Of a stretch of DNA of 42,742 nt, positions 696 through 37,253 are shown piece by piece. Position 1 is the first letter of the stretch. Each line of letters opens with the position of its first letter. The notes beneath the pieces are model-generated. The model made no database searches, had not been told where the DNA came from, and saw nothing but the letters and a program-made list of their open reading frames with translations. Location of the stretch: positions 1 to 42,742 of IMG/VR virus record IMGVR_UViG_3300031673_007329; one strand, written 5' to 3'. This stretch comes from a virus. Both the position numbers and the translations under genes were made by a program.

Positions 696-756
696 AGCGG
701 ATAAAAAAAGCCGCCACATTTGGTGAATAAGAAGACCGAGAAGTCGGCCTTTTTTT
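696..756 (+). ncRNA. Two-hairpin leader RNA, copy 1
   Basis: One of four copies with the same plan. The first hairpin is GCGG (697-700) paired with CCGC (711-714) around an A-rich loop. A 15-base linker (715-729) follows, then AGAAG and a hairpin with four consecutive base pairs (736-739 with 744-747, loop GAAG), extended by further pairs beyond an A-C mismatch, then seven T. It resembles an intrinsic terminator placed in the leader of the scaffold/capsid message. It could attenuate transcription or, like the HK022 put RNA, modify RNA polymerase. The function is inferred. Confidence 0.75.
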
Positions 757-4492: not shown

Positions 4493-5647
4493 GTGGGAAA
4501 AGACAAAAAACTGCTCAGAAAATGCCCGATATGTTTAAACGAAACAGGGCAAGTGTTGCATCACCAATCTTTTGAAATCCCCGAAAATTATCCTTTGCCA
4601 AGCGAATATGATGTTGTTTGCTGTTTGAGGTGCGGTTTTGTTTTTGCTGACACTTCGGCTACTCAAGAAGACCACAACCGTTTCTACAAAGACTTTTCAA
4701 AGTATGAATTTAGTTCAAGGGGACTCAAAACAACGAGCAACTGGACTTGGGACAGACTGAAGGCTATGACCAAATATCTGCCCAACAAAAATGTTTCTAT
4801 CTTGGATGTTGGTTGTGCTAACGGCGGCTTGTTAGTCTGGTTGAAGAAGTTAGGTTACAAAAATTTAAGCGGTCTTGATGTGCCAAAAAGGTGTATTGAG
4901 AACGCTAGAAAACAGGGCGCCAATGCTTTTCAAGGAAACCTCTTTTCCATTGATTCGGACATTCCCGATAAAAAGTTTGATTTCATCACTTTCACCCATG
5001 TTCTTGAACACATTTATGACTTGCGGAAAGCTGTAAACAATCTTGTTGGCAAACTGAACGAGAAGGGGATTTTGTATGTTGAAACGCCAAATGCCTCACG
5101 CTTTGCGGAATATTATTTCAGCCCTTTTAGTTACTTTGATGTTGAGCATATTAACCATTTTGATAAAAACTCCTTAAAAAACTTGTTTTTACAAAAGAAC
5201 CTTGACCTGCTTGAGTTGGTTGAAGACGAAACTCGTGTTTCAAACAAGACTTACCCAGTAATTTATGCTTCGTACCAAAAACAAGAAAGTTTTAAGACTA
5301 GGGATGTTGTCGTCTCCTACATCAAGAAATCCCGCCAGAATAATAAGTGGCCAGAGATAAACAAACTTGCTAAAACACAGGAGGAAGTAGCTATTCGGGG
5401 AATTGGGGGCTATACAATGCAACTCTTAAAAAACACCTCTCTTGGTAAATGTAACATTACCCTTCTTATCGACAGGGACAAGAACAAAGAAGGGATGAAA
5501 GTAAAAGGTATTCCCATTTCCTGTTCACTAGAGAAACTGAGAACCCATCAAGGGCCGATTGTTGTCTGTACGGCTATATGGCAGGATGACGTTTTGAAAG
5601 AGATAAAAGATATGAAACTAAATAACCGTGTCATTGTGATGAAATGA
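4493..5647 (+). CDS. Sugar C-methyltransferase (zinc-binding N-terminus)
   Basis: 384 residues. Residues 11-47 carry two cysteine pairs (CPIC and CLRC), the putative zinc-binding domain of C-methyltransferases that act on nucleotide-keto-sugars. Residues 104-112 (LDVGCANGG) are the SAM-binding motif I. The C-terminal third is a Rossmann-like domain of the C-methyltransferase C-terminal type. The order and length match TylC3/NovU-type enzymes, which add a branch methyl to a dTDP-4-keto-sugar; here the carrier may be CDP. Start is GTG, apparently leaderless. It is the first gene of the cassette, and its stop overlaps the next ATG (ATGA). Family assignment is confident; the actual substrate is not known. 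Confidence 0.85.
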   Translation: MGKDKKLLRKCPICLNETGQVLHHQSFEIPENYPLPSEYDVVCCLRCGFVFADTSATQEDHNRFYKDFSKYEFSSRGLKTTSNWTWDRLKAMTKYLPNKNVSILDVGCANGGLLVWLKKLGYKNLSGLDVPKRCIENARKQGANAFQGNLFSIDSDIPDKKFDFITFTHVLEHIYDLRKAVNNLVGKLNEKGILYVETPNASRFAEYYFSPFSYFDVEHINHFDKNSLKNLFLQKNLDLLELVEDETRVSNKTYPVIYASYQKQESFKTRDVVVSYIKKSRQNNKWPEINKLAKTQEEVAIRGIGGYTMQLLKNTSLGKCNITLLIDRDKNKEGMKVKGIPISCSLEKLRTHQGPIVVCTAIWQDDVLKEIKDMKLNNRVIVMK

Positions 5648-6720
5648 AATCCCAGGAAATTAAAAGAAGAAACAAATTAAAAGAAGAAAAACCCCTCGTT
5701 TACGCAAAGGTTGCGAGGTTCAAGGAAAAACTGGAAAAGGGTGAAAGTATCGCCATTGTCCAATTCCAGTACAACTACACCTGTAACTTCCACTGCCAGC
5801 ACTGCTCCATAAAAGGATTCCAAGGCAAAAGCAATAGGCGGCAGTTTACGATTCCTGATGTAAAAAATCTATCTCGGCAGGCTGATGAAATGGGATTGGC
5901 ACGGTTTGTGATTACTGGCGGTGAGCCATTGGTATTCAAAGACATTGATGAGTTGACAGCCGCCATTGACCCTAAAAAATTCTATATCAGTTGCGATACA
6001 AACGGATGGCTTTTAGACAAGAAAAAAGCTAAACACTTAAAGAGCATCGGCATTGATAGAGTCCAGTTAAGCATAGATAGCCTCAATCCTAAAGAACACG
6101 ATGCCTTCAGGAGAATGAACGGGGCACACGAAAGGGCTATGGAGGCAGTTGACGCCGCTTTAGACGCTGGTTTGGGTATCTTCATCCAGACTGTCGTTTG
6201 GAAAGAGAGACTTTATTCAGACGAGTTCATCAAGTTTGTCGAACATTTTAACAAGAAGGGGATAGGGGTGTTTGTCAGTTACGCCAAGCCAGTTGGTGCT
6301 TGGGAAGGTAATTTTGATGTCTTGATTGATAAAAAAGATATGAAATACTTCGAGGGGCTTGAAAAGAAACATAATGTCTTTACTCACTTGACCCCTGCCT
6401 ACGGACTTAAAATGGGTTGTATCGGAGTTAAGGGAATGTTTTCCGTTACCCAGTATGGTGATGTCCTGCCCTGCCCCTACATCCACATCTCGATTGGCAA
6501 TGTTTTTGAAGAACCGCTAAAAGACATTGTAAAAAGGGGGCTGAGCATTAAGTTTTTCGGTGAGCACGTTGATACTTGCACGGTTGCTGAGGACAGGAAT
6601 TTCATCCACAACTATTTAGAAAAGAAGGTCTATGGGAAGTCCCTGCCAGTTCACTGGTCTGAGGTGTTTACTAAAAAAGACTTTAGGAAGGAGGTGTTTA
6701 GAGATGGCACTAAAAGTTAA
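5644..6720 (+). CDS. Radical SAM protein
   Basis: 358 residues. Cys47, Cys51 and Cys54 form the CX3CX2C motif that binds the catalytic [4Fe-4S] cluster, and GGEP near residue 100 fits the SAM-binding loop. The C-terminal part has further cysteines (around residues 259, 278 and 306), suggesting a reduced SPASM or twitch-like auxiliary site, fewer than a full SPASM domain. It starts in an ATGA overlap with the methyltransferase. In glycan clusters such enzymes can dehydrate, epimerise or otherwise modify sugars. A role in peptide modification is also conceivable because a 75-residue gene follows, but nothing proves it. Reaction unknown. Confidence 0.8.
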   Translation: MKSQEIKRRNKLKEEKPLVYAKVARFKEKLEKGESIAIVQFQYNYTCNFHCQHCSIKGFQGKSNRRQFTIPDVKNLSRQADEMGLARFVITGGEPLVFKDIDELTAAIDPKKFYISCDTNGWLLDKKKAKHLKSIGIDRVQLSIDSLNPKEHDAFRRMNGAHERAMEAVDAALDAGLGIFIQTVVWKERLYSDEFIKFVEHFNKKGIGVFVSYAKPVGAWEGNFDVLIDKKDMKYFEGLEKKHNVFTHLTPAYGLKMGCIGVKGMFSVTQYGDVLPCPYIHISIGNVFEEPLKDIVKRGLSIKFFGEHVDTCTVAEDRNFIHNYLEKKVYGKSLPVHWSEVFTKKDFRKEVFRDGTKS

Positions 6721-6931
6721 AAATCCAAACCTAGATTTAAAAATAACTGATTTTAGACTAAAGATTAATTCTAAACTATTGGGTAAAAAGTCGCCTCTTA
6801 TGATAGTTAAAAAAGCAACTAATCAATTTATTAAACAATCGTCAGTAGATATTTGGAAATATACACTTGAAGGTATGGTTAGAGAAATATTAGACGAAAT
6901 TAAAAATATTACTAAAGAAAAAGGGAAATGA
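6704..6931 (+). CDS. 75-residue basic protein inside the glycan cassette
   Basis: GGAAGGAGG directly upstream sets the ATG at 6704, 17 bases before the end of the radical-SAM gene. The product is basic and looks amphipathic: a beta-strand-like N-terminus of alternating Leu and Lys/Asp, then helices. It has no cysteine. The DNA is visibly more A+T-rich than its neighbours. The gene ends in an ATGA overlap with the thiamine enzyme. It could be an accessory subunit of either neighbour, or a radical-SAM substrate peptide. I do not recognise it. Confidence 0.6.
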   Translation: MALKVKNPNLDLKITDFRLKINSKLLGKKSPLMIVKKATNQFIKQSSVDIWKYTLEGMVREILDEIKNITKEKGK

Positions 6932-7875
6932 AAGTAAGCGACTATTTAGTTAAAGAGCTAGAGAAAATTACCGACTCAATATTCCTTGTCTCGGGGGGCG
7001 GCATTATGCACTTGGTGGACTCAGTCCGAAAATCCAAGTTAAACGCTTACTGCTGCCACCACGAGCAGGCGACTACTATTGCGGCTGAAGGCTATGCTAG
7101 GATGAAGAACGATATCGGTGTTGTTTTGGTAACTACTGGCCCAGGTGGCACAAACGCCATTACTGGGGTGGCTGGGGCGTGGCTGGACAGTATTCCCATC
7201 TTGGTTATCGCTGGCCAGGTTAAAACAGATAATATCGTGCCTAAAGGTTCAGGTTTAAGAGCACTTGGTTTTCAAGAATTAAATGTCATTGATTTGATGA
7301 AGCCAATAACGAAATATGCGGTTACAGTAGAAGAACCTTATCAGATAAGGCGTGAATTAGAGAAGGCGATTCGGATAGCCAAAGAGGGCAGACCAGGGCC
7401 AGTTTTCTTAGAGATTCCCCTAGATGTTCAGGCGGCTGATTTAATCCCAATGGAGTTGATTGTTAAAAAATTGAAGGAATCTGAAAACCCGTTAATACTA
7501 ATTGGCAATGGAGTCCGTCTGGCTGGCGGGATTGACATTTTGCGAAAGGTTATTGATAAACTGAAAATTCATTTTGTGGTGGGGATGTTTACAGCTAGTG
7601 ATATTTTAGCTCCCTGGGGGGGATTTGGCGTGCAAGGAATGTGGGGAAATTTGACAGCAAACAGAGCAGTTGATAACTGCGACCTTCTTTTGGTGATTGG
7701 CGACAGGCTTGACTTAACTCAAACTTCCTATGATTACGAAAACTTCGCTACTCAAGCCTATAAAATCATGGTTGACATTGACCCAGCTGTCTTGCGTAAA
7801 AAGACTCTTAAAATAGACTTGCCTGTTTGTTGTGATGCAAAGGAGTTCCTAGATGAGTTATATAAATCCTTATAA
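6928..7875 (+). CDS. Thiamine-diphosphate enzyme, PYR and central domains
   Basis: 315 residues resembling the first two thirds of acetolactate-synthase-like enzymes. The PYR domain (about 1-170) includes the catalytic glutamate, Glu46 in HHEQATT, and the TTGPGGTN loop. The central domain (about 180-310) follows. The diphosphate-binding domain is missing and is encoded separately by the next gene, which overlaps by 23 bases in another frame. Among cluster-associated relatives, YerE of Yersinia transfers a two-carbon unit from pyruvate to C4 of a CDP-3,6-dideoxy-4-keto-hexose. The presence of RfbF, RfbG and RfbH homologues just downstream makes a YerE-like role the best guess. Other pyruvate-derived acyloin reactions are possible. 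Confidence 0.8.
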   Translation: MKVSDYLVKELEKITDSIFLVSGGGIMHLVDSVRKSKLNAYCCHHEQATTIAAEGYARMKNDIGVVLVTTGPGGTNAITGVAGAWLDSIPILVIAGQVKTDNIVPKGSGLRALGFQELNVIDLMKPITKYAVTVEEPYQIRRELEKAIRIAKEGRPGPVFLEIPLDVQAADLIPMELIVKKLKESENPLILIGNGVRLAGGIDILRKVIDKLKIHFVVGMFTASDILAPWGGFGVQGMWGNLTANRAVDNCDLLLVIGDRLDLTQTSYDYENFATQAYKIMVDIDPAVLRKKTLKIDLPVCCDAKEFLDELYKSL

Positions 7876-8407
7876 ATTCTGGGATAAATTAAATAAGTGT
7901 TCTGATTACTCTGTAGTGACTGCCAATGGTATGGCTAGTGTGACTGCCCATCAAGCACTGAGGGTTAAGAAAGGTCAGAGGCTTATCACCAACGCTGGGC
8001 TGGGTCACATGGGTTCTGGATTGCCTTTAGCGATTGGTGCTTGTATAGCCAGCAAAAAACCCATTGTTTGTGCTACTGGCGATGGTTCTATTATGTTTAA
8101 CATCCACGAACTTCAGACAATCGTTCACCACAAACTGCCTATCAAAATCTTCATCTTTAACAATGGCGGTTACTGGTCAATCCGTAACACCCACCGCAAT
8201 TACTTTGGCGAGCCATTTGCTTGTGATAAGGATACAGGCGTTAGCTTACCTGACTTCAAAAAGATAGCAAAAGCCTTTGGGATAAAATATGAACAAAATG
8301 TCAAGAAAGCTATAGATTATAAAGGGGCGGTCATTTGCGAGTTAATGATAGACCCAGACCAGAAGTTATTACCATCATGGACAGCAGGACAATACCGAAA
8401 ACTATAA
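7853..8407 (+). CDS. Thiamine-diphosphate enzyme, PP domain
   Basis: 184 residues holding the cofactor-binding PP domain: GDGS at 76-79 and NN at 103-104 are the Mg-diphosphate motif, and NAGLGHMGSGLPLAIGA is typical of acetolactate-synthase-like enzymes. The preceding gene supplies the PYR and central domains, so the pair should form one enzyme. The first residues (SYINPY) correspond to the point where one-chain relatives resume after the linker, so only about 15-20 linker residues seem lost. The 23-base overlap allows translational coupling. A recent frameshift is less likely, because the upstream frame ends at a natural domain edge and this gene has its own ATG. Confidence 0.8.
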   Translation: MSYINPYKFWDKLNKCSDYSVVTANGMASVTAHQALRVKKGQRLITNAGLGHMGSGLPLAIGACIASKKPIVCATGDGSIMFNIHELQTIVHHKLPIKIFIFNNGGYWSIRNTHRNYFGEPFACDKDTGVSLPDFKKIAKAFGIKYEQNVKKAIDYKGAVICELMIDPDQKLLPSWTAGQYRKL

Positions 8408-9084
8408 TTTTGTGCGGCGGAAAAGGAATGAGGCTAGTTGAAGAGACTGAGTTCAAGCCAAAACCGATGGTGAAGATAGGCGACGAGCCAATTTTGGGGC
8501 ATATTATGAGGATATATGCCCACTATGGCTATCGGGACTTTATTCTGGCTCTTGGCTATAAGGGGGAACAGATAGTAGACTATTTTTGGAAAGAGGATAA
8601 CTTCAACATACGATTTGCCGATACTGGTCTTGAAACTCCCCACGGCGAGAGGGTTTTAAAACTTAAAAAGTATGTTGATGAAGATTTCTTTATGGTGACT
8701 TATGGAGACGGGGTTGCTGATATAGACATCAGTAAATTGGTGGATTTCCACAAAAAGAAGGGAACAATAGCGACCATTACTGGCGTTCATACTACCTCAA
8801 GATGGGGCTTGGTAAAAACCGATGAAAACGATATCGTTACCCACTTCGGCCAAAAGCCACTTCTTGCCGAGTATATTAACGGCGGGTTTATGGTTTTCAA
8901 AAAGGATTTCTTTGGTATACTAAAAAAAGGCGATATGATAGAGGATGCCATTTTGAGATTGATTCCCAAAAAACAGGTGGCCTTATACAAACACGAAGGT
9001 TTCTGGTATGGTATGGACACTTACAAGGATTTTAAATTCTTAAACAAAGTTTGGAAGGAAGACCCAAAATGGAAAATATGGTAA
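8377..9084 (+). CDS. rfbF: Glucose-1-phosphate cytidylyltransferase
   Basis: 235 residues. Makes CDP-glucose from CTP and glucose 1-phosphate, the entry to CDP-3,6-dideoxyhexoses. The nucleotide-binding start (CGGKGMRL), the run KPKPMVKIGDEPILGHIM and the catalytic-loop motif TYGDGVAD are characteristic of RfbF/DdhA rather than RfbA-type thymidylyltransferases. HEGFW..MDT near the C-terminus also fits. I use the ATG at 8377, 14 codons inside a frame that opens with TTG at 8335. Both starts lie inside the end of the thiamine gene. It is slightly shorter than the usual 257 residues, mainly in the segment after the first 70 residues. Confidence 0.9.
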   Translation: MDSRTIPKTIILCGGKGMRLVEETEFKPKPMVKIGDEPILGHIMRIYAHYGYRDFILALGYKGEQIVDYFWKEDNFNIRFADTGLETPHGERVLKLKKYVDEDFFMVTYGDGVADIDISKLVDFHKKKGTIATITGVHTTSRWGLVKTDENDIVTHFGQKPLLAEYINGGFMVFKKDFFGILKKGDMIEDAILRLIPKKQVALYKHEGFWYGMDTYKDFKFLNKVWKEDPKWKIW

Positions 9085-9968
9085 ACAGAAACATTTTAGT
9101 TACTGGTGGCAATGGTTTTATAGGCAGTCATTTAGTTGCAGAGTTGCAGAAAGATAATGAGGTTGTGTTTTTTCCTTTTGGGAGAGATGAAGATATTAAG
9201 TCCTATTCCAAAGTTCTTAATCTTGTTACCAGATATGAGGTTGATTTCATTTTTCACCTAGCGGCTCAAACTATCGTTGGAACGGCGTACCACAATCCTT
9301 TAGAAACTCTGGCTACGAATATAATGGGGACGGCTAACATTCTCGAAGCAGCCCGCCACTATCCAAAGATAAAAGGCGTTTTAGTTGCCTCTAGTGACAA
9401 GGCTTATGGTAAAATGAGAGACAAATACACGGAAGATAATTCTCTAAAAGGAGACCATCCATACGATGTTTCCAAATCTTGTGCCGACCTCATTGCCCAG
9501 ACTTATTACAATACCTACCAGTTGCCAGTGGTGATTACTCGGTCTGCTAATACCTACGGGGCTGGCGATATTCATTTTAACAGGCTCATTCCTGGCATTT
9601 TCAAGGCGATTATTAAAAACGAAACTCTTAAAATCAGAAGCGATGGCACTTTTACCCGTGACTATATTTATGTCAAGGATGTAGTTGACGCAGACATTGC
9701 TTTAATGGAAAATATGATGAAGACAAGAGGAGAAGCCTTTAACCTTTCTTCTGGCGACCACTATTCTGTTCTTGAGTTAGTTGAGAAAATAGGGGAGATA
9801 TTAGGCAAGGAAGCCAAATGTGAAATCCTCAATACTGCTAAAAACGAGATTCCTTTTCAATCTCTTTCTTGCGAGAAGATAAAGAAAGCTATTGGTTGGC
9901 AAGCTAAATATAGTTTAGAAAAAGCCATTCCTGAAACCTTTAATTGGTATTTAGATTACTTGAAATGA
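9069..9968 (+). CDS. rfbG: CDP-glucose 4,6-dehydratase (short-chain fold)
   Basis: 299 residues. Extended short-chain dehydrogenase with GGNGFIG at 13-19 for NAD and catalytic Tyr132/Lys136 in PYDVSKS. The SSDKAYG motif around 108-114 and the DVSKSCADLIAQ segment are characteristic of RfbG/DdhB, which turns CDP-glucose into CDP-4-keto-6-deoxyglucose. GGAAGGA upstream sets the ATG at 9069, within the end of rfbF. It is about 55 residues shorter than classical RfbG (about 355), so a related 4,6-dehydratase or epimerase cannot be excluded. Location between RfbF and RfbH homologues supports the call. Confidence 0.85.
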   Translation: MENMVNRNILVTGGNGFIGSHLVAELQKDNEVVFFPFGRDEDIKSYSKVLNLVTRYEVDFIFHLAAQTIVGTAYHNPLETLATNIMGTANILEAARHYPKIKGVLVASSDKAYGKMRDKYTEDNSLKGDHPYDVSKSCADLIAQTYYNTYQLPVVITRSANTYGAGDIHFNRLIPGIFKAIIKNETLKIRSDGTFTRDYIYVKDVVDADIALMENMMKTRGEAFNLSSGDHYSVLELVEKIGEILGKEAKCEILNTAKNEIPFQSLSCEKIKKAIGWQAKYSLEKAIPETFNWYLDYLK

Positions 9969-11164
9969 AATACATTCCTGCCTCTGGCAAAGTTTACGAC
10001 CAAGAAGAAATAAACAACGCAATTAAAGTCGCCAAAGACGGTTGGTGGACAATGGGAGAATTTGCCAAGAAGTTTGAGGGCAAGTTCAGCCAGTTGTTTG
10101 GGGGTCGCCACGTTGTTTTAACTAACTCTGGTTCTTCTGCCAACCTTCTGGCTGTTAAGGCTCTTGGTTTAGAACCTGGTGATGAAGTGATTACGGCGGC
10201 AGCGGCTTTTCCAACAACAGTCAATCCGATTATCCAAAGCGGTTGTATCCCAGTTTTTGTTGATGTTGATTTAGCCACCCGCAATGTAATACCAAAGGAC
10301 ATAAAGAAGGCCGTTAGCAAAAAGACCAAAGCCATTGTTTTAGCCCACACGCTAGGTAATCCTTTCTCCCTGAAAGAGATTTGTAAAATTGCCTACAAAC
10401 ATAAGCTTTATTTAATTGAAGATTGTGCCGATGCTTTAGGCTCAGAATACGATGGCAAGTTAGTCGGCACTTTTGGGGATTTGGCTACCTTTAGCTTTTA
10501 CCCTGCTCACCAGATTACGATGGGAGAGGGTGGGGCAGTTATCACCAATAATCTCTTTTTTGCTTATTCAGTACAAAGACTCCGTGATTGGGGGCGGGAT
10601 TGCTGGTGTATGCCTGGAAAAGACAATACTTGCGGAAAACGATTCAACCAGAAATTTGGGAAACTACCCTTCGGCTATGACCACAAGTATGTTTACTCCG
10701 AGATAGGCTACAATCTTAAACCAACTGACTTTCAGCCAGCTATAGGGTTGGCTCAATTAAAAAAACTACCGCAATTTATCAAAAAAAGGCAGGAAAACTT
10801 TGTTTCCCTTCATCTGTTTTTTGAGAACTACCAGCAATTCTTTATCCTGCCCAAATGGGAAAAGGAAGCCACGCCTTGTTGGTTTGGGTTTATGGTTGTC
10901 TTACAAGATGATTGTCCTTTTACCCGCTTGGAAATAGTTAAGTTTTTGGAAGGAAAGGGAATTGGCACAAGAAACCTGTTTGCTGGCAATCTTCTTCGTC
11001 ATCCTGCCTATTTAAAGGTTGAGCATATGGGGGTTGGCAAATTGGAGAACTCAGACAAGATTATGAATGACGGCTTCTGGATAGGAGTTTGGCCAGGGAT
11101 TACCACCGATATGATAGAATACATAACAGAAACATTAGCTGGATTTCTAAAGTCTTATCTATGA
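9965..11164 (+). CDS. rfbH: CDP-4-keto-6-deoxyglucose 3-dehydrase
   Basis: 399 residues. PMP- and iron-sulfur-dependent dehydrase of the DegT fold that removes the C3 hydroxyl. The lysine that would hold PLP in aminotransferases is replaced by His182 (FYPAHQITMGEGG), the hallmark of RfbH/E1. Cys213, Cys215 and Cys223 give CX1CX7C, the distal [2Fe-2S] ligands. The first ligand looks shifted: Cys154 is 58 residues before Cys213, where the Yersinia enzyme as I recall has 57. The reductase partner (E3/DdhD) is not encoded in the window, so a host reductase would have to supply electrons. Start is an ATGA overlap with rfbG. Confidence 0.9.
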   Translation: MKYIPASGKVYDQEEINNAIKVAKDGWWTMGEFAKKFEGKFSQLFGGRHVVLTNSGSSANLLAVKALGLEPGDEVITAAAAFPTTVNPIIQSGCIPVFVDVDLATRNVIPKDIKKAVSKKTKAIVLAHTLGNPFSLKEICKIAYKHKLYLIEDCADALGSEYDGKLVGTFGDLATFSFYPAHQITMGEGGAVITNNLFFAYSVQRLRDWGRDCWCMPGKDNTCGKRFNQKFGKLPFGYDHKYVYSEIGYNLKPTDFQPAIGLAQLKKLPQFIKKRQENFVSLHLFFENYQQFFILPKWEKEATPCWFGFMVVLQDDCPFTRLEIVKFLEGKGIGTRNLFAGNLLRHPAYLKVEHMGVGKLENSDKIMNDGFWIGVWPGITTDMIEYITETLAGFLKSYL

Positions 11165-12639
11165 TAAAAAAGCCTTTGTTTATCTTTGAGATGGCCAACA
11201 ACCATATGGGGAGTGTTGAACACGGTCTGAAGATTATTCAGGAGTTTCACAAAATTACTGATGGGTTTGATTTTGACTTTGCTTTTAAGTTTCAGTTCAG
11301 GGATATACCAACATTCATTCACCCAGATTACAAAGAAAGAATGGATATCAAATATGTTAAGCGCTTTACTGAAACTGCTCTTTCTAGGGCAGAATGGGTA
11401 ACACTAATAAGAGAAATAAAAAGACTCGGCTTTATTTCTATTTGCACTCCCTTTGACGAAAAGTCAGTTGATGCGATTGAGGAATTGCATTTTGACATTA
11501 TTAAAATCGGCAGTTGCTCAATGCCAGATTGGCCGTTGCTTGAAAGAATAGTCAAAACTGACAAGCCGATTATTGCTTCCACGGCAGCGGTTACTTTTTA
11601 TGATTTAGACCAAATAGTTAATTTCTTCCAACACCGAGAGAGGGACTTTAGCCTAATGCATTGTGTCGGTGAGTATCCTACCCCAGAAGAACACCTTCAA
11701 CTTAACCGAATAGGCTTGTTTAAAAATAGATACCCAGGAGTGCCTGTTGGCTTTTCCACCCACGAAGAGCCTACTAATTTTAGTGTTGTTCAACTGGCAA
11801 TTGCCAAGGGAGCAAGAATCTTTGAAAAGCACGTTCAGATTGACAAGGTAAATGACTACTCTGCCACCCCAGAACAGGCTTTAGAGTGGCTTAGGGCCGC
11901 CCAGAGAGCATTTAAAATGTGCGGGGTTACTGATTCAAGGTCAATTTCTACAATCAAAGAACATTCTGATTTAAGACAATTCAAAAGGGGTGCTTTTGCT
12001 AAAAGGGAGATTAAAAAGGGAGAAGCTGTGGGATTGAAAGATATGTTTTTCGCTTTTCCCAATCAAGAGGGCCAAGTTTTAGCAAATGATGTATCCAGAT
12101 ACACCCATTTTTACGCCAACAAGACAATCAAGAAGAACGGGGCAGTTATTGATGTTAAAAAAGTTAACATTAGAGAAAAAGTTTATTCGATTGTAGAGAA
12201 GGCAGATAAGATTTTGAAAAAACACAGGATTCCTATTCCTTCGGGCAAGACAGATATTTCAGTTTCCTATCACTATGGCCTCGACAGATTTTACGAAGTT
12301 GGGGCGGTTCTGATTACCTGTATCAACAGGGAATATTGTAAAAAGCTGATTGTCATGTTTGCTGGGCAGGGACTTCCAATCCACCACCATAAGAAAAAAG
12401 AAGAAACATTCTACTTCCTTGCTGGTGATTGGACTATTGACCTTGAAGGAGAGAAAAAGGCTTATAAACCTGGCGACATTCTCACCGTTGAGCGTGGAGC
12501 CACTCACATCATTAAAGCAACAACAGACGGGGTTTTAGAAGAAGTTTCTTCAACCCATTATCCCAGCGATTCTTACTACGAGGATGAGAAAATCATTAAA
12601 AACAAAAACAGAAGAACTCTCTTAACTTATTGGATATGA
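11161..12639 (+). CDS. NeuB-like synthase with SAF and cupin domains
   Basis: 492 residues. The first 255 or so form a NeuB-type barrel: EMANNHMGS at the N-terminus, KFQ, CTPFDE, the IKIGSC and IASTA strands, GFSTH and FEKHV all match sialic-acid-synthase-family enzymes that condense phosphoenolpyruvate with a sugar. A SAF (antifreeze-like) domain follows at about 285-345. A C-terminal cupin (about 365-485) holds the metal motif HHH...E followed by PGD. The fusion suggests a nonulosonic-acid-type synthase coupled to a sugar isomerase or epimerase step. The ATG at 11161 is chosen for its ATGA overlap with rfbH. The substrate is unknown. Confidence 0.8.
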   Translation: MIKKPLFIFEMANNHMGSVEHGLKIIQEFHKITDGFDFDFAFKFQFRDIPTFIHPDYKERMDIKYVKRFTETALSRAEWVTLIREIKRLGFISICTPFDEKSVDAIEELHFDIIKIGSCSMPDWPLLERIVKTDKPIIASTAAVTFYDLDQIVNFFQHRERDFSLMHCVGEYPTPEEHLQLNRIGLFKNRYPGVPVGFSTHEEPTNFSVVQLAIAKGARIFEKHVQIDKVNDYSATPEQALEWLRAAQRAFKMCGVTDSRSISTIKEHSDLRQFKRGAFAKREIKKGEAVGLKDMFFAFPNQEGQVLANDVSRYTHFYANKTIKKNGAVIDVKKVNIREKVYSIVEKADKILKKHRIPIPSGKTDISVSYHYGLDRFYEVGAVLITCINREYCKKLIVMFAGQGLPIHHHKKKEETFYFLAGDWTIDLEGEKKAYKPGDILTVERGATHIIKATTDGVLEEVSSTHYPSDSYYEDEKIIKNKNRRTLLTYWI

Positions 12640-13646
12640 AGGCGACAGAAATTAGTGGTCAAGCACCAGGCGGAAAGAGAACAAAACTTGCTGATGTTCT
12701 TCCTTTGGCTACTCCTTATGTAGTCCAGATATTCCCAATTTACGCTTGTAATTTCAAGTGTAAGTATTGTATCTTTTCGATACCCAGAAACAAGCGGGGT
12801 TTTATTTCAAACAAAGTTGTTATGGATTTTGGTTTATTTAAAAAATGTATCGATGACTTAACTGAGTTTCCAGATAAGGTGAAAATGCTACGCTTTGTGG
12901 GGATGGGAGAACCGCTTTTGCACAAAAGGATAGCAGATATGGTTAAATACGCAGTCTCAAAAAAGGTTGCCGACAGGGTAGCGATTTTAACAAATGGGTC
13001 ATGTTTAACTCCAAAATTGTCAGATGCCTTGATATCAGCTGGCCTTTTAAGATTGGAGATATCTGTACAGGGAACGACAGCAGAAAAGTACAAGGAGATA
13101 AGCAATGTTGATATCGACTTTAAAGAGTTTGCTGATAATATTCAATACTTTTTCAATCATAAAACCGAAACAAAAATACATATTAAAATTGTGGATATTG
13201 CCTTAGATGATAAAAACGATGAAAGAAGATTTTATGAAATTTTTAGTGATATTTGTGACTCTATCGGGATTGAACACGCTGGTCCCATTTTCCCTGGTGT
13301 GAAATACAACAAAAACTTGAAAGACCGCCCATTAACTCAATTTGGTTTAGAAGTTTCAGAGGTTAAAGTTTGTCCGCAACCTTTCTTTCACTTACAGGTT
13401 AATCCAGATGGGAAAGCAGTTTCTTGCTATTCTGTCACTTATCCAGCTATTATGGGGGATTGTAACAAGCAAACATTATTGGAAATATGGAATGGGGATA
13501 AACTCCAACAGTTTAGAAAAAAGATGTTTGATGGCAGAAAGAATGTCTGTAAATTATGTGCTAACTGTAATATAATTAAACACAGATTGTTTCCAGAAGA
13601 TGTTTTAGATAATGATATTGAAAGATTAAGAGGGTTATACAAATGA
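12636..13646 (+). CDS. Radical SAM/SPASM protein
   Basis: 336 residues. Cys38, Cys42 and Cys45 form CX3CX2C for the radical-SAM cluster. The C-terminal quarter has a SPASM-like cysteine array (VCPQPF, SCYS, GDC, VCKLCANC), which would hold auxiliary [4Fe-4S] clusters. The GMGEPLLHK segment fits the family fold. SPASM enzymes act as peptide maturases, sulfatase activators or dehydrogenases of sugars and aminoglycosides; the glycan context favours a sugar oxidation or epimerisation. Start is an ATGA overlap with the NeuB-like gene, and the stop overlaps the next ATG. Confidence 0.8.
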   Translation: MKATEISGQAPGGKRTKLADVLPLATPYVVQIFPIYACNFKCKYCIFSIPRNKRGFISNKVVMDFGLFKKCIDDLTEFPDKVKMLRFVGMGEPLLHKRIADMVKYAVSKKVADRVAILTNGSCLTPKLSDALISAGLLRLEISVQGTTAEKYKEISNVDIDFKEFADNIQYFFNHKTETKIHIKIVDIALDDKNDERRFYEIFSDICDSIGIEHAGPIFPGVKYNKNLKDRPLTQFGLEVSEVKVCPQPFFHLQVNPDGKAVSCYSVTYPAIMGDCNKQTLLEIWNGDKLQQFRKKMFDGRKNVCKLCANCNIIKHRLFPEDVLDNDIERLRGLYK

Positions 13647-14455
13647 ACATTGGAATTTTTGGGGCGACTTCACATATTGCCCAAGGATTGATTCATAACT
13701 TTAGCAAGAATGATGACCAAACTCTTTATTACTTCGAGAGAAGTAGTTATGGTAAAAATGGCTGGTTGTATAAGGTTGATTTTGATGTCATTATCAACTG
13801 CGTGGGTGTAGGAACGAATCCAAAAGACCATACAGATTATTTTACGGTTACCGAGAAATACGACAATTTAGCGATTGATTATCTTCTTAAACACCCCAAG
13901 ACACTCTACATCAGTTTTTCAAGCGGAGTTGTACACAGGCCACTTGAGAGTGATTATGGCACTGTTAGGCTTTATACAGAGGCCAAACACCGAGCCTTTA
14001 AAGACTTAAACATTGTTGATTTGAGGCTTTATTCTTACTTCAGTCGCTTTCTCAATATGGATGACGATTACTTTATGGTTGATGTAATTAAGGCAGTCAT
14101 AGACAAAAAACTACTGGAAACCAGTATAGGAAATTTTGTCCGAGATTTCATCCATCCCAATGACCTTTTTTCTCTTATAAAGAAAATAATAAAGAGGCGT
14201 AAGATTAACCAGGTTTTTGAAGTTTGTAGTCGTGCGCCAGTAACAAAGCAACAAATTCTTGACTATTTCTCATCTGAACATGGATTAAAATACAAGGTTA
14301 CAAAATTTCGGCATTGGGTTAGTGCTACTGGTACAAAAGATTGCTATTTTCCTGATACTCTTAGACCAGAGGTATTAGGCTACGAACCAAAATACACATC
14401 TTTACAAACTATTAAGGAGGAAGCAAAATGGCTGCTAAAAAAAGACGAGATTTAA
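13643..14455 (+). CDS. Short-chain reductase/epimerase of the glycan cassette
   Basis: 270 residues. The N-terminus IGIFGATSHIAQG is a nucleotide-binding glycine motif, and Tyr111/Lys115 (YTEAK) is the catalytic pair of extended short-chain dehydrogenases. RDFIHPNDL around residue 170 is typical of nucleotide-sugar epimerases and reductases. If the thiamine enzyme makes a 4-acetyl branch, a reductase of this kind (YerF in Yersinia) would be needed to finish a yersiniose-like sugar, so this is the natural candidate. That role is inferred. The gene starts in an ATGA overlap with the SPASM gene and overlaps the glycosyltransferase by 28 bases. Confidence 0.75.
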   Translation: MNIGIFGATSHIAQGLIHNFSKNDDQTLYYFERSSYGKNGWLYKVDFDVIINCVGVGTNPKDHTDYFTVTEKYDNLAIDYLLKHPKTLYISFSSGVVHRPLESDYGTVRLYTEAKHRAFKDLNIVDLRLYSYFSRFLNMDDDYFMVDVIKAVIDKKLLETSIGNFVRDFIHPNDLFSLIKKIIKRRKINQVFEVCSRAPVTKQQILDYFSSEHGLKYKVTKFRHWVSATGTKDCYFPDTLRPEVLGYEPKYTSLQTIKEEAKWLLKKDEI

Positions 14456-15657
14456 GAATTTTATGGAGTTCAAATGGTTTTTTTACAAATTCAGGATATG
14501 GCGTGGAGACACGCGAGATTTTAGGCAGGCTTTTAGATGATGGCTGGATAGTTGGTCATATCGCTTTCTATGGTCTTGAGAGTTTCCCTCAGATGATGGA
14601 TATTCCTAGTCCAAAAGGTGGTCAGAAAATTAAAGTCTATCCAAAAATGGCCCATCCTTATGGTTCAGACGCTTTAATCAATTGCGGGATAGATTTTAAG
14701 GCTCATGTAATTTTCACCATGCAGGATGTTTGGCCTCTTGACCCCAATCATTTAAGACGAATTAAGATGTACATTCCCTATGTGCCCATTGACCAAGAGC
14801 CAGTTCCTCCAGAAGTCATAATGCGTTTAAGGTTTGCCAACCGCATTATTACTTTTTCTCGTTACGGGCAAGCGGCTTTGGAAAAAGCTGGTTTGTTTTC
14901 AGACCTAATTTTAGAGGGAACTAATGTTAATACTTTTAAACCTTTGGATAAAAAGAAAATGCGGGAAAAGTTCAAACTTCCCCAAGACATCTTCTTGTTT
15001 GGTGTTATCGGTGCTAACAAAGATAATCCACCAAGGAAAAGTTATCAGGAAATGATAGAGGCTTTTAATATCTTTCAGAAGAGACACCCAGAAGCAAGAA
15101 TGATGTTCCACACCCAGCAACACGCACCTGGTGGTTTTCCCATTATCCCTTTTGCCAAACATCTTGGTTGTAATCAGAAAATCTTTTTTATAGAACCTGT
15201 TAGGGGAACCCACTTTTTTGATTCAGAAAAAATTTGCCAAGAGATAAATGCTTTTGATGTTTGCCTCCATACTTCCCAAACAGAAGGTTTTGGATTGGTC
15301 ATTATTGAAGCCCAAGCTTGTGGCGTGCCCATAATTGTAACTAGAGGAATGTCAATGCCAGAGTTAGTGATTGAAGGTAAAACTGGTGAAATTGCTGAGG
15401 TTGCCTCTAAAAGGTTTTCTCCTGCTCAAGGATATTGGGTTGTTCCCTCAGTCCCTTCAATTGTGGAAAAGATGGAGATTCTGTACAAAAAGTTACATCA
15501 AAAGAATACAATCGCCAAAGATTGCCGAAAATGGATTGCGGATAATTATAATATTGATACCATCGTAAAAGAGAAGTGGATTCCCTATCTTGAGAAGCTC
15601 CAAAAGAAAATCTTGACACCAGTAAAAAAAAGTGATAAGGTTATATTTACTAGATAA
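14428..15657 (+). CDS. Glycosyltransferase, GT-B fold (GT4-like)
   Basis: 409 residues. N-terminal donor-independent domain begins LRILWSSNGFFTNSGYG. The C-terminal domain has the HTSQTEGFGLVIIEA segment whose two glutamates give the E-X7-E signature of retaining GT4 enzymes, followed by GVPIIVT and PELV. AGGAGG sets the ATG at 14428, inside the reductase gene. It is the last gene of the cassette and is probably the enzyme that transfers the finished sugar onto a surface glycan or virion protein. The acceptor is unknown. No membrane segment is seen. The -35 box of the next promoter lies inside its last codons. Confidence 0.85.
   Translation: MAAKKRRDLRILWSSNGFFTNSGYGVETREILGRLLDDGWIVGHIAFYGLESFPQMMDIPSPKGGQKIKVYPKMAHPYGSDALINCGIDFKAHVIFTMQDVWPLDPNHLRRIKMYIPYVPIDQEPVPPEVIMRLRFANRIITFSRYGQAALEKAGLFSDLILEGTNVNTFKPLDKKKMREKFKLPQDIFLFGVIGANKDNPPRKSYQEMIEAFNIFQKRHPEARMMFHTQQHAPGGFPIIPFAKHLGCNQKIFFIEPVRGTHFFDSEKICQEINAFDVCLHTSQTEGFGLVIIEAQACGVPIIVTRGMSMPELVIEGKTGEIAEVASKRFSPAQGYWVVPSVPSIVEKMEILYKKLHQKNTIAKDCRKWIADNYNIDTIVKEKWIPYLEKLQKKILTPVKKSDKVIFTR
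15613..15641 (+). promoter_or_regulatory. Promoter of the tail unit
   Basis: TTGACA (15613-15618), 17 bases, then TGATAAGGT, an extended -10 with a weak hexamer TAAGGT (15636-15641). The predicted start is about 15649, the first base of the leader RNA. Much of the promoter lies inside the 3' end of the glycosyltransferase gene. The weak hexamer makes this the least certain of the four related promoters; its leader supports it. Confidence 0.65.
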
Positions 15658-15708
15658 CATGGCTAGCATGATTCGTGAACTTAGAAGGCGAGGGAACTCG
15701 TCTTTTTT
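15649..15708 (+). ncRNA. Two-hairpin leader RNA, copy 2
   Basis: CTAG (15650-15653) pairs with CTAG (15663-15666) around nine bases. A 16-base linker ends in GTGAACTT. AGAAGG then begins a hairpin (15687-15692 with 15697-15702, loop GGAA) followed by six T. It shares the plan, spacing and AGAAGG motif of copies 1, 3 and 4 but has a less A-rich first loop. It heads the tail and adaptor genes. Confidence 0.7.
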
Positions 15709-21752: not shown

Positions 21753-21781
21753 TTGACAAAACAAATGAAACCTAGTATATT
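21753..21781 (+). promoter_or_regulatory. Promoter of the internal-protein/lysis unit
   Basis: TTGACA (21753-21758) and TATATT (21776-21781) separated by 17 bases: a near-perfect sigma70 promoter in a short gap. Predicted start about 21788, the first base of the leader RNA. Confidence 0.85.
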
Positions 21782-21787
21782 AAATCT

Positions 21788-21848
21788 ACCTGACAAAAAA
21801 CGGCAGGCAAACTTTGTGAATTAGAAGGCAGAGAAATCTGTCTTTTTT
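21788..21848 (+). ncRNA. Two-hairpin leader RNA, copy 3
   Basis: CCTG (21789-21792) pairs with CAGG (21804-21807) around an A-rich 11-base loop. A 15-base linker ends in GTGAATT. AGAAGG then begins a hairpin (21827-21832 with 21837-21842, loop GAAA) and six T. Spacing equals copies 1 and 4. It precedes the genes for internal virion proteins and lysis. Confidence 0.8.
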
Positions 21849-26300: not shown

Positions 26301-26312
26301 AAACTGGCCTCT

Positions 26313-26340
26313 TGACAAAGTTTATTTTTATGTTATATTA
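26313..26340 (+). promoter_or_regulatory. Promoter of the pseudoknotted small RNA
   Basis: TTGACA (26313-26318), 16 bases, then TGTTATATT, an extended -10 with hexamer TATATT (26335-26340). The start is expected at about 26347, in the first paired strand of the RNA below. Confidence 0.85.
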
Positions 26341-26346
26341 AATATG

Positions 26347-26441
26347 CGGTTCAATGTTGTTAAACTAAAGACTCTCTTAGTCTTGCGGGAAGCCGCAACG
26401 AAAGTTTAACACCTTTCCGCAGGACTTGGAGAGTTTTTTTG
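26347..26441 (+). ncRNA. About 95-nt pseudoknotted RNA with terminator
   Basis: A 9-bp stem pairs 26359-26367 with 26404-26412, closed by TGCGG (26346-26350) with CCGCA (26418-26422). A terminator stem pairs ACTCTC (26372-26377) and AGTC (26380-26383) with GACT (26424-26427) and GAGAGT (26430-26435), then seven T. A GAAG-capped hairpin (26384-26389 with 26394-26399) sits inside. The terminator interleaves with the first stems, giving a pseudoknot. No ORF of note. Its own promoter and terminator make it a discrete small RNA; a ligand-sensing leader of the longer RNA is the alternative. It matches no class I can name. Confidence 0.7.
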
Positions 26442-31387: not shown

Positions 31388-31539
31388 GCAAGCCAAAAAG
31401 AAAGTATCCTGAGCATTGGTGTTGTATTTGCGGGAAGAAAATTAAGAACGGAATTTGTTCAAGTTTTTTAAGGTTAGGATGGTGTAATGAACACAGCAAA
31501 TATTACCCGAAAGGTAAAAATGAGGAGGCATTTTGTTAA
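31384..31539 (+). CDS. 51-residue zinc-binding protein
   Basis: ATGA overlap at the start. Residues 13-16 give CCIC, then C25, C34 and the terminal C51: a minimal zinc finger (CXXC...C...C) with His at residues 11 and 37. GAGGAGG near its end serves the next gene. A host-protein adaptor or nucleic-acid-binding role is possible; unproven. Confidence 0.5.
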   Translation: MSKPKRKYPEHWCCICGKKIKNGICSSFLRLGWCNEHSKYYPKGKNEEAFC

Positions 31540-31850
31540 TCGGTTGTGACTTTGACGGAGTAATTAGAAAAATAGGGGGCTTTCCACGAAAGGCTGAATT
31601 TTGGGATGACCCACCAGTGAAGGATGCCGTTGAAGCAATTAACCACATTGTTAACGAAGGACACAAAGTCTATATCCTCACGGCAAGAAAAAAGAAATGG
31701 CATCCCCAAATCAAGAAGTGGTGTATCCGATATGGCCTCCCGCCTTTAGAAGTAACAAACATTAAAAAAGATAACACCCAGCTTATCATTGATGACCGAG
31801 CAATAAGGTTTGATAATAATTGGTTATCAATTTCTAAGTTGCTTACCTAA
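31533..31850 (+). CDS. HAD-family phosphatase
   Basis: 105 residues. LIGCDFDGVI is HAD motif I (nucleophile Asp then acid/base Asp), LTAR is motif II, and IIDDRA with the Lys before it holds motifs III-IV. It is short, without a large cap. TTG start with GAGGAGG seven bases upstream. It lies just before a GHMP sugar kinase and a nucleotidyltransferase. In heptose pathways a HAD phosphatase (GmhB) acts between kinase and nucleotidyltransferase, so this is the natural candidate. The sequence also resembles 5'-nucleotidase and polynucleotide-phosphatase HADs, which are alternative roles. Confidence 0.75.
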   Translation: MLIGCDFDGVIRKIGGFPRKAEFWDDPPVKDAVEAINHIVNEGHKVYILTARKKKWHPQIKKWCIRYGLPPLEVTNIKKDNTQLIIDDRAIRFDNNWLSISKLLT

Positions 31851-32842
31851 TGAAGATAATTGCCCACGCACCATCCCGAATTTCCCTCTTTGGAGGTGGG
31901 ACAGATTTGTCCCCATTCTGTGAAGAATACGGTGGCAAGGTTTTAAACATGGCTATCAACCTACGCCACAAATGCGTTTTAGAACCAAGCCCCATTCCTG
32001 GCCACTTGTGGTATTTAATCAGTGCTATGGGTGAAATCAGAGAAGGCAGTATTAATGATTTACCCAAGCGGGGGGTCGATAAAAAATTCGGTCTTATCTA
32101 TGAGATTATCCGTTCCTACGATTTGCCAAACGGCTTCAGGTTTGCTGATGAGTTTGACGGCATCCAGTCAGCTGGTTTGGGTTCTTCAGCCTCAGCCGCA
32201 GTTTCTATGATTGGGGCTTTTAACAGGTGGTTGGGTATTAAGCAGTCAAGACAAGAGGTTGCTGAAAAGGCTTGGCAAATGGAAATAAATCTAGGCTGGG
32301 TATCAGGAAAGCAAGACCAATACGCTTCTGCTTTTGGCGGGGTTAACTTCTTTGCTTTCAACGAAAAAGTTTACAATGACCCGATTGAAAGAGGAGCAGT
32401 GGAGAAATTTTTACCTTGGTGTCTGCTTGTTTACACAGGGGCTACAAGACACTCAGCTGAAATTCAGGCTGTCCTCAGGAAAAGAATGAAGGGTAAAAAA
32501 ACAATCAAGGCTCTTAAAAAGTTACGGGCTTTAGCCTGGGAAAGCCGAGAACATCTTAGAAGCGGTGATTACCAGAAGGTAGGCGAAATGTTGGATGAAT
32601 CGTGGGAATGGAAAAAGCAATCCAACCCAAAAGCAACCAGCCCAAGAATAGACAAGTTTTACCAAGAGGCAATGGAAGCTGGGGCGATTGGTGGCAAGGT
32701 GTTGGGGGCGGGGCAAGAAGGCCACATGTTGTTTGTGGTAGCACCACGCCAAAGAGAAGCTGTTTTAAAAGCACTTGCCCTTAAAGAGATTGATTTCAGT
32801 ATTTGTTGGAACGGCCTAGAAGTAAGAGAGGACTATCAATGA
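31850..32842 (+). CDS. GHMP sugar kinase (heptose-7-phosphate kinase-like)
   Basis: 330 residues. APSRISLFGGGTDL at the N-terminus and AGLGSSASAAV at 108-118 (the ATP loop) are GHMP-kinase motifs, and GKQDQYASAFGGVNFF is characteristic of the HddA family, which phosphorylates D-glycero-D-manno-heptose 7-phosphate at C1. The start overlaps the phosphatase stop (TAATG), and the end overlaps the nucleotidyltransferase ATG. A fucokinase or another sugar kinase of the same fold cannot be excluded. No isomerase (GmhA) gene is present, so the substrate would come from the host. Confidence 0.85.
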   Translation: MKIIAHAPSRISLFGGGTDLSPFCEEYGGKVLNMAINLRHKCVLEPSPIPGHLWYLISAMGEIREGSINDLPKRGVDKKFGLIYEIIRSYDLPNGFRFADEFDGIQSAGLGSSASAAVSMIGAFNRWLGIKQSRQEVAEKAWQMEINLGWVSGKQDQYASAFGGVNFFAFNEKVYNDPIERGAVEKFLPWCLLVYTGATRHSAEIQAVLRKRMKGKKTIKALKKLRALAWESREHLRSGDYQKVGEMLDESWEWKKQSNPKATSPRIDKFYQEAMEAGAIGGKVLGAGQEGHMLFVVAPRQREAVLKALALKEIDFSICWNGLEVREDYQ

Positions 32843-33369
32843 AAGCACTCATATTAGCGGCGGGCTTGGGGACTCGCCTACTGCCACTCACTAAAGATAC
32901 GCCTAAATGTATGATAAAGGTAGGAGGTAAGCCCGTGCTTGAGCATTTGGTTGACCATTTAAACAGCTTTGGCATTACTGAGATTATAGTAAACTTACAT
33001 CACCTACCAGAAAAGATATATCAGCACTTTGGAACAAGGTTGCTCTATTTCTATGAGCCGAAGTTGTTGGGGGAAGAAAGAACGGAAAGAGAGTTACAAA
33101 ACTGGCTGGGGGAAAGCTACATTGTAATGAATGGCGATACCCTGACAGATGTGGATATTGGAAAAATGATAGTGCTTTCTTCTAACGAAGAAGCGGAGAT
33201 TTTGTCAGTTGATGATGGAGTTTATACTGGAACAAGGGTAGGCCGTAAATGGCAAGGGAAAATCCTAAAAGTTGAGTTTGAATGTTACTGGGTTGATATC
33301 GGCACACCAGAAGGACTTAAAAAAGCAAGAGACCATTATGAAAAAAACAAACTTAATCATTTGTCCTAA
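32839..33369 (+). CDS. Sugar nucleotidyltransferase (HddC-like)
   Basis: 176 residues from the ATG at 32839 (ATGA overlap with the kinase). The signature AAGLGTRLLPLTKDTPKCMIKVGGKP, an LILAAGxGTR-type NTP-binding start, and MNGDTLTD at the metal site identify a nucleotidyltransferase. Beside a heptose kinase it would charge heptose 1-phosphate (HddC makes GDP-heptose). It is 50-60 residues shorter than typical, the part after the first 110 residues being compressed, yet the C-terminal VDIGTPEGL motif is retained. Base specificity cannot be read from sequence alone. Confidence 0.8.
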   Translation: MKALILAAGLGTRLLPLTKDTPKCMIKVGGKPVLEHLVDHLNSFGITEIIVNLHHLPEKIYQHFGTRLLYFYEPKLLGEERTERELQNWLGESYIVMNGDTLTDVDIGKMIVLSSNEEAEILSVDDGVYTGTRVGRKWQGKILKVEFECYWVDIGTPEGLKKARDHYEKNKLNHLS

Positions 33370-33756: not shown

Positions 33757-34027
33757 GGAAACGATTGATTACATTACTAAAAAGAACCTCCTCAAGTGGC
33801 GGAATCAAGCCCATTATCGCAATTGGGGAGCAAAAGGCTACATTCTGGAGGTAACAACCTCCATGCTTTGGCCAACTGAGGTAATCTTAAAAACACGAGA
33901 GCTTGGAATGGAAAAGGAAATCCGCCTTCCAAAGGAGAAAGTGATTAAGAAGGTAACAGGCTCTTCTCTGGCTGAGTGTTTAAGAAAGATTAAGAAGGTA
34001 GTTGACAACGGTGTTACAATAGAGTAA
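33746..34027 (+). CDS. Unrecognised 93-residue protein, last of the early region
   Basis: ATG at 33746 inside the preceding small gene. Mixed alpha/beta, with EETIDYITKKNLLKW at the N-terminus and basic ends. The promoter of the terminase unit (34002-34030) overlaps its last codons. No motif recognised. A longer frame from 33680 runs wholly within neighbouring coding sequence. Confidence 0.55.
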   Translation: MTIEETIDYITKKNLLKWRNQAHYRNWGAKGYILEVTTSMLWPTEVILKTRELGMEKEIRLPKEKVIKKVTGSSLAECLRKIKKVVDNGVTIE

Positions 34028-34030
34028 GAT
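34002..34030 (+). promoter_or_regulatory. Promoter of the terminase/portal unit
   Basis: TTGACA (34002-34007), 17 bases, then TAAGAT (34025-34030). The -35 lies inside the last gene of the early region. Predicted start about 34037, the first base of the leader RNA. Confidence 0.8.
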
Positions 34031-34036
34031 ATGAAC

Positions 34037-34097
34037 ACCAGACAAAAAGAACTGGCAATCGTAGCAAACTAGAAGGCACGGAAATCGTGCTTTTTTT
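34037..34097 (+). ncRNA. Two-hairpin leader RNA, copy 4
   Basis: CCAG (34038-34041) pairs with CTGG (34052-34055) around an A-rich ten-base loop. A 15-base linker follows, then AGAAGG and a hairpin (34076-34080 with 34086-34090, loop GAAAT) and seven T. It precedes the terminase and portal genes. Compared with copies 1 and 3, both strands of both stems change together. Confidence 0.8.
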
Positions 34098-34606: not shown

Positions 34607-34930
34607 ATGGCACACGGTCACGGTGGCAAAAGGGCAGGCTCGGGTCGCAAGAGCATAAAGACAGAATACGAGGTTAAACACGAGTTACAGAAGTATCTAG
34701 GTTTAGCCTATGAGTCTATTAGAGCCAGTCTAGAGGCAGGAAAGACCAAAGAGCAGATAAGGACTACTTCAGCATACAAGCTAATAGCTAAGTTCGTTGG
34801 TGACAGACAGGCTGTCCAAGTTACAGGGGATATAGACAAGCCAGTCGGTGTTGTTGTCTTGCCATTATTGAACAAAAAGGTAGAAGATAAGACCGATAGT
34901 GTTGAAGATAAGGCAGATGAGCACGAATGA
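34607..34930 (+). CDS. terS: Terminase small subunit
   Basis: 107 residues. The N-terminus GHGGKRAGSGRKS is the Gly/Arg-rich start seen in many small terminase subunits; a helical DNA-binding part follows and the C-terminus is acidic. It lies 172 bases before the large subunit, the usual order. It should recognise the packaging site and direct the motor. Small size and limited motif content make this a context-supported call. AAAGG lies upstream of the ATG but is weak. Confidence 0.7.
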   Translation: MAHGHGGKRAGSGRKSIKTEYEVKHELQKYLGLAYESIRASLEAGKTKEQIRTTSAYKLIAKFVGDRQAVQVTGDIDKPVGVVVLPLLNKKVEDKTDSVEDKADEHE

Positions 34931-36998: not shown

Positions 36999-37253
36999 AT
37001 GATTGAGATTGCGGTCATTATTATTTTATCAGCCCTCTTAGCTTGGGAGAAGTATTCTAATCGTAAAGAGAGGGAAAAGTTTATCAACGCCTTGATTGCC
37101 AAAAACGCCCAAGAACTTCAAGACCTTGATTATGTGGATAAGTTAAAACCTGCGAAAGAAGAACCAGAGATTCCACCAGATTTAATGCCGATTGATAAAA
37201 TGGAAGTAGACAGTAAAGAGTTTAAAAAAGTAATTGAAAAGGAAACAAGCTAA
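36999..37253 (+). CDS. Small membrane-anchored protein before the portal
   Basis: 84 residues: an N-terminal membrane helix (IEIAVIIILSALLAW), then a basic and acidic tail containing NALIAKNAQELQDLD and an acidic C-terminal part. Small one-helix proteins of this shape occur directly upstream of the portal in many phages; their function is not known. Its stop overlaps the portal ATG (TAATG). Confidence 0.65.
   Translation: MIEIAVIIILSALLAWEKYSNRKEREKFINALIAKNAQELQDLDYVDKLKPAKEEPEIPPDLMPIDKMEVDSKEFKKVIEKETS

Follow-up and report, generated by a model that had tools for sequence, protein, structure and literature searches.

Four late operons of the phage analysed here are each headed by a short leader RNA, which is probably a default-off attenuator whose first two hairpins, P1 and P2, are held by a trans-acting factor, the likeliest being the small phage zinc-ribbon protein znr. 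That the leaders form an RNA switch at all is very likely. The stretch of DNA under study, called the window throughout, is a 42.7-kb virus record (IMGVR_UViG_3300031673_007329, positions 1 to 42,742). According to our model, a sigma70-type promoter would start the RNA, the first ~20 nt of which would fold as P1 (4-5 bp stem, AYRANWNRG loop), and the linker would then pair with the first bases of the following stem to form the antiterminator P2. Unless P2 is held, these bases would instead pair with the downstream arm to form the terminator P3, and RNA synthesis would halt after ~60 nt. By recognizing the loops of P1 and P2, a trans-acting factor, for which znr is the best candidate, would stabilize both hairpins, block P3 and thus switch on all late operons together.

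Four leaders head the late operons of the window

The initial annotation had placed four copies of the leader at 696-756, 15649-15708, 21788-21848 and 34037-34097; all are positioned as claimed, and the window contains exactly four. Scored with a covariance model that left out the promoter, they reached 57.3, 54.9, 53.5, and 53.4 bits and the next match 12.4 bits, where the gap rather than the score is what counts because the four copies were among the model seeds. An independent promoter-terminator scan, defined by a TTGACA-like -35 (at most one mismatch), 16-18 nt, TAnnnT and then a terminator within ~110 nt, picked out exactly the same four window copies, and the reversed sequence gave no unit. 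All four leaders lie on the + strand, each immediately 5' of a gene (Table 1).

The architecture first ascribed to the copies needed some revision. The TTGACA of the proposed TTGACA-N17 promoters is present at all four, but copy 2 has a poor -10 at 17-nt spacing. Both hairpins exist, but the second is the terminator, the stem of which has an A-C mismatch in copy 1. The linker between them is likewise present, but instead of being passive it pairs with the terminator 5' arm.

The window genes include scaffold, capsid, terminase, portal, and tail-like genes and an early region at ~26.3-34.0 kb, the labels 'late' and 'early' being taken from gene content. All 4 leaders head late (virion) operons and none precedes early genes; the promoters at 26312 and 27056, which lie ahead of early genes, carry no leader of this type. 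The suggestion that these promoter-proximal RNAs are attenuators or antitermination leaders linking four transcription units is supported.

Table 1. Leader elements, the operons behind them and the candidate regulator in the window
Feature	Start	End	Strand	Details
Leader 1 promoter	661	689	+	TTGACA 661-666, TAATAT 684-689
Leader 1 P1	697	714	+	GCGG 697-700, loop ATAAAAAAAG, CCGC 711-714; one base past predicted +1 A (696)
Leader 1 P2 (antiterminator hairpin)	719	740	+	UUUGGU 719-724 with ACCGAG 735-740, loop GAAUAAGAAG
Leader 1 P3 (terminator)	732	756	+	732-739 / 744-751, T run to 756; 5' arm common to P2
Operon start behind leader 1	808	2817	+	scaffold-like gene (from ATG 808), then major capsid gene 1576-2817
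Leader 2 promoter	15613	15641	+	TTGACA 15613-15618, weak TAAGGT 15636-15641
Leader 2 P1	15650	15666	+	CTAG 15650-15653, loop ATAACATGG, CTAG 15663-15666
Leader 2 P2	15672	15692	+	UUCGU 15672-15676 with GCGAG 15688-15692
Leader 2 P3 (terminator)	15685	15708	+	15685-15692 / 15697-15704, T run to 15708
Operon behind leader 2	15721	21751	+	structural genes; orthologous leader in G001 and others
Leader 3 promoter	21753	21781	+	TTGACA 21753-21758, TATATT 21776-21781
Leader 3 P1	21789	21807	+	CCTG 21789-21792, loop ACAAAAAACGG, CAGG 21804-21807
Leader 3 P2	21812	21833	+	CUUUGU 21812-21817 with GCAGAG 21828-21833
Leader 3 P3 (terminator)	21825	21848	+	21825-21832 / 21837-21844, T run to 21848
First operon genes behind leader 3	21870	24007	+	structural; orthologues behind leaders in G001, G002, G008, G010
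znr	33338	33604	+	88-aa basic zinc-ribbon protein (ICPNC...CGKCGE), candidate antiterminator; at early-region end, 0.4 kb before leader 4
Leader 4 promoter	34002	34030	+	TTGACA 34002-34007, TAAGAT 34025-34030
Leader 4 P1	34038	34055	+	CCAG 34038-34041, loop ACAAAAAGAA, CTGG 34052-34055
Leader 4 P2	34059	34081	+	UCGU 34059-34062 with ACGG 34078-34081
Leader 4 P3 (terminator)	34073	34097	+	34073-34080 / 34086-34092, T run to 34097
Operon behind leader 4	34607	39235	+	terminase small-subunit-like 34607-34930, TerL 35103-36551, portal 37253-39235

Other features of the window, all on the + strand, were recorded alongside the leaders. Frame 720-1526 is open from inside leader 1 across the terminator into the scaffold gene, which is seen at leader 1 only and is probably due to chance. 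A large set of sugar/nucleotide-sugar type genes lies in the capsid operon and the early region (4493-14455 and 31533-33369), among them a GHMP kinase and a nucleotidyl transferase by Pfam and NeuB-like, epimerase-like, and thiamine-pyrophosphate-enzyme-like genes by eye. At 26312-26441, a strong promoter precedes a 96-nt RNA that ends in T7 and is predicted to fold very stably (-37.1 kcal/mol, z -5.2), likely a separate non-coding RNA opening the early region, for which a search of the relatives gave no match. The segment 26459-26690 starts like tRNA-Leu (gcggtggcggaaaaggtagacgc), continues to caccgc ~220 nt further on and has no tRNA or Rfam match; it is perhaps an interrupted tRNA or an unknown RNA.

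P1 is conserved in structure and P2 shares an arm with the terminator

Across the family, we assembled 34 unique copies, consisting of 20 seeds, picked partly for a visible hairpin, and 14 non-seeds. A perfect P1 stem of at least 4 bp starts 34-37 nt after TTGACA in all 34, as against 5.5 ± 2.2 (maximum 12) in shuffles, and its arms take 24 different sequences; these numbers are partly circular because hairpins were visible when the seeds were selected and the stem is part of the model. Whole-structure covariation scores 0.542; shuffling gives 0.207, and sliding the structure no more than 0.146. The initial annotation had held that pairing is kept while sequence drifts, and had named beforehand a larger alignment as the place where this could fail; with covariation above both controls and so many different arms, the claim stands. 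The P1 loop has 9 nt in 21 of the 34 copies, with A1, Y2, A4, and R8 invariant and G9 in 20/21 (consensus AYRANWNRG). Three further candidate features were discarded: genome-specific P1 loop signatures are not significant, a tiny start-stop reading frame at GUGAAUUAG differs among copies, and the most conserved positions of the P1 loop are at odds with a -10-like pause motif there.

Directly after AGARG come the bases of the terminator 5' arm; the linker is complementary to them in its 3' half, and this pairing constitutes P2 (Table 1 lists the pairs for leaders 1-4). Matched linkers and arms from 59 leaders scored 9.80 vs 6.18 ± 0.45 when permuted, with none of 2,000 permutations as high; within genomes, the score was 9.76 vs 7.52 ± 0.47, with none of 20,000 as high. 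This test is clean because the leaders were found and aligned without P2. With 3-7 bp, the P2 stem is short (3/59 leaders show none by the rule used), and its loop, approximately GAAUUAGARG, is about 7-15 nt long. For an RNA ending before the P3 3' arm, the predicted fold is P1 plus P2 in 29/34 copies, whereas in the full-length leader P3 folds in most. P2 and P3 share an arm, as the antiterminator and terminator of an antitermination leader do, and are mutually exclusive. P3 would be the structure that terminates and P2 the one that prevents termination.

The leader family is conserved, reduced, or absent in related phages

Capsid relatives at 63-66% identity have one leader at the same site, 5' of the scaffold gene. 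Pattern scans of viral contigs added leaders amid many chance matches to tRNA ends and coding sequence; the first viral pattern was abandoned, its matches being mostly a tRNA 3' end plus a terminator, together with coding chance matches. The covariance model built from the 20 seed RNAs found 30 matches in 13/15 related records, with 2-5 in many records and five at most. TTGACA lies at a fixed distance of ~36 nt (35-38 nt) 5' of nearly all of these, found without the promoter in the model; the exceptions are one paralogue with TTGCAA (two near-identical records) and one with TTGACG (two records). A second model, applied to 48 capsid-clade records, yielded additional copies, the majority of which have a TTGA-type -35 at an unchanged distance. 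The clade was sampled via the capsid protein because znr lacks conserved blocks. In diverged phages, leaders head terminase/portal, scaffold/capsid, and tail-type operons, and the late-operon positions are conserved; across this group of uncultured phages, almost all virion gene blocks begin with such a leader. The model-free scan detected at least one promoter-terminator unit in most clade records, one across all reversed controls and none in seven leaderless relatives.

Some genomes have departed from this layout. In leaderless G015, G033, and G040, which have no znr, the scaffold 5' UTR keeps a hairpin and the terminator is absent. G027 has four reduced leaders with one hairpin each, an invariant loop AUUUAGA and a covarying stem that overlaps the terminator. 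In G012, a 5' hairpin overlaps the terminator arm. The variants of G027 and G012 support the P2/P3 overlap logic. Two departures weigh against the model: P2-like leaders without P1 occur in some genomes (G043 and G048), and G012 and G031 show an overlap of another kind.

Rfam 15, searched at gathering and relaxed cut-offs, gave no family over cut-off and nothing credible for the leaders or the window. A loop-based pattern returned 60 matches in bacterial genomes, none of which passed the model, so that no host or prophage copy was found there. By eye, the related phages G001 and G006 apparently encode GroEL- and GroES-like proteins.

znr is co-inherited with the leaders

In the first record set, every leader genome of 23 kb or more encoded znr, and both leaderless genomes lacked it. 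We extended this to 59 gene families across 26 records, each 29 kb or longer, scoring G043 as leader-bearing by eye after znr had turned up there. All 19 leader genomes encode znr and none of the 7 leaderless relatives does (p=1.5e-6, kinship ignored); znr is the only one of the 59 families that follows the leader, the next best reaching p=0.048. The leaderless records are scattered over the capsid tree; informative independent pairs number only two, both agreeing. Four leader records have no znr, and all are fragments <29 kb. The form of znr also tracks that of the leader: with short R-T spacing, P1 leaders occur in 15/16 genomes with scan units (the exception is G047), and where znr carries a long insert (long R-T spacing), a separate P1 is found in 0/5 genomes. 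Wherever znr and the terminase leader were both mapped, the gene precedes that leader by about 0.3-4 kb.

The window protein is basic (14 K/R, 4 D/E) and its predicted structure is a compact ribbon. Searches of Pfam, PHROGs, PDB, fold libraries, and cultured phages gave no convincing relative or fold match, and neither znr nor the portal has a match in cultured phages. RNA binding by znr is a guess, because the protein has no recognizable relative or fold match. From co-inheritance, we give znr somewhat better than an even chance of being the factor that acts on the leaders. The same P1/P2/P3 attenuator could instead respond to transcription speed or to a host factor, be it a Nus factor or a different RNA-binding protein, and have nothing to do with znr; we consider this unlikely. 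P2/P3 exclusivity is independent of the reader, znr has no known relative, and the znr-leader association ignores shared ancestry, all of which would suit a host reader; such a reader leaves unexplained why znr alone matches the leader profile and why its form tracks that of the leader.

The leaders differ from known antitermination systems

The initial annotation likened the leaders to the put RNAs of HK022, which also place two hairpins near a phage transcript start. put is ~70 nt long, has two long bulged stem-loops close together and no terminator, and binds the RNA polymerase beta' zinc-binding domain by itself (PMC9378689). The likeness is not supported: the leaders have a 4-5 bp stem I, hairpins 11-18 nt apart, a terminator as the second hairpin and an exclusive antiterminator that overlaps it, whereas put has longer stems and acts on the polymerase directly (PMC9378689). 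Searched against HK022, the leader model gave its best match in the tail region (18.2 bits at 12950) and none at the early promoters PL/PR. A put-like RNA that binds polymerase and confers terminator resistance with no protein, although in keeping with the 5'-proximal position, the two hairpins and the phage setting (PMC9378689), is thus extremely unlikely.

The ANTAR proteins EutV, NasR, and AmiR act on pairs of small hairpins in tandem whose loops contain conserved residues; the second hairpin overlaps an intrinsic terminator, and a multi-operon regulon is possible (PMC3369931). The leaders share the tandem hairpins and the use of terminator bases by the second. ANTAR targets have hexaloops with A1/G4; in the leaders, P1 loops are mostly 9 nt, with a 6-nt loop in 1/34, and P2 loops exceed 6 nt by the rule used. 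The leaders are therefore not filed as ANTAR targets, despite similar working. They also differ in having P1 start from about +2, in preceding phage late genes and in having a zinc ribbon as candidate regulator. An ANTAR domain was found in 0/21 records, with the control genomes equally silent.

The RAT of BglG/SacY/LicT is a single 29-30 nt element (PMC3369931). As in the leaders, the antiterminator hairpin overlaps the terminator, and in RAT it is held by protein. CAT_RBD, the domain of the RAT regulator, occurs in 0/21 phage records, with the control positive in 4 genomes and host copies outside the search.

In lambda, the Q gene is located before its late promoter. The leaders resemble the lambda Q and AlpA systems in that a promoter-proximal terminator gates expression and a regulator gene, here a candidate, precedes a late promoter, znr lying just 5' of that of the terminase operon. 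Q and AlpA load at promoter DNA (PMC6606751, PMC9371919). By analogy, a factor could bind the promoter DNA, load on paused polymerase and pass the terminator, the RNA being merely a terminator, and a promoter with a close terminator is indeed the Q/AlpA layout (PMC6606751, PMC9371919). We regard this as very improbable: the -35/-10 spacer has no strongly conserved base (at most 0.38 bits) and thus no conserved DNA element, whereas it is the RNA structure that is conserved, and the covariation of P1 and P2, like the conserved loop, requires an RNA reader.

A candidate master switch for late phage genes

The attenuator held by znr may represent an undescribed class of late-gene control, in which a zinc-ribbon protein reads dual-hairpin antiterminators before each late operon, and the regulator is gained, lost, and remodelled in step with its leaders; we see this as about an even prospect. 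A search of open-access papers turned up no such system, which gives weak support for novelty.

How late genes are controlled is not known in most uncultured phages, and the leaders provide a readable late-regulon signature (promoter plus P1/P2/P3), with znr as a named candidate regulator. Signature and znr can be tested by reporter without culture of phage or host. If znr is the reader, it would be a novel type of antiterminator that binds RNA, and a compact genetic switch. If the model is true, three things would be new: the family of RNAs, its regulator, and the reliance of a single phage regulon on several RNA switches in parallel. The leader group looks like a new master switch for late phage genes.
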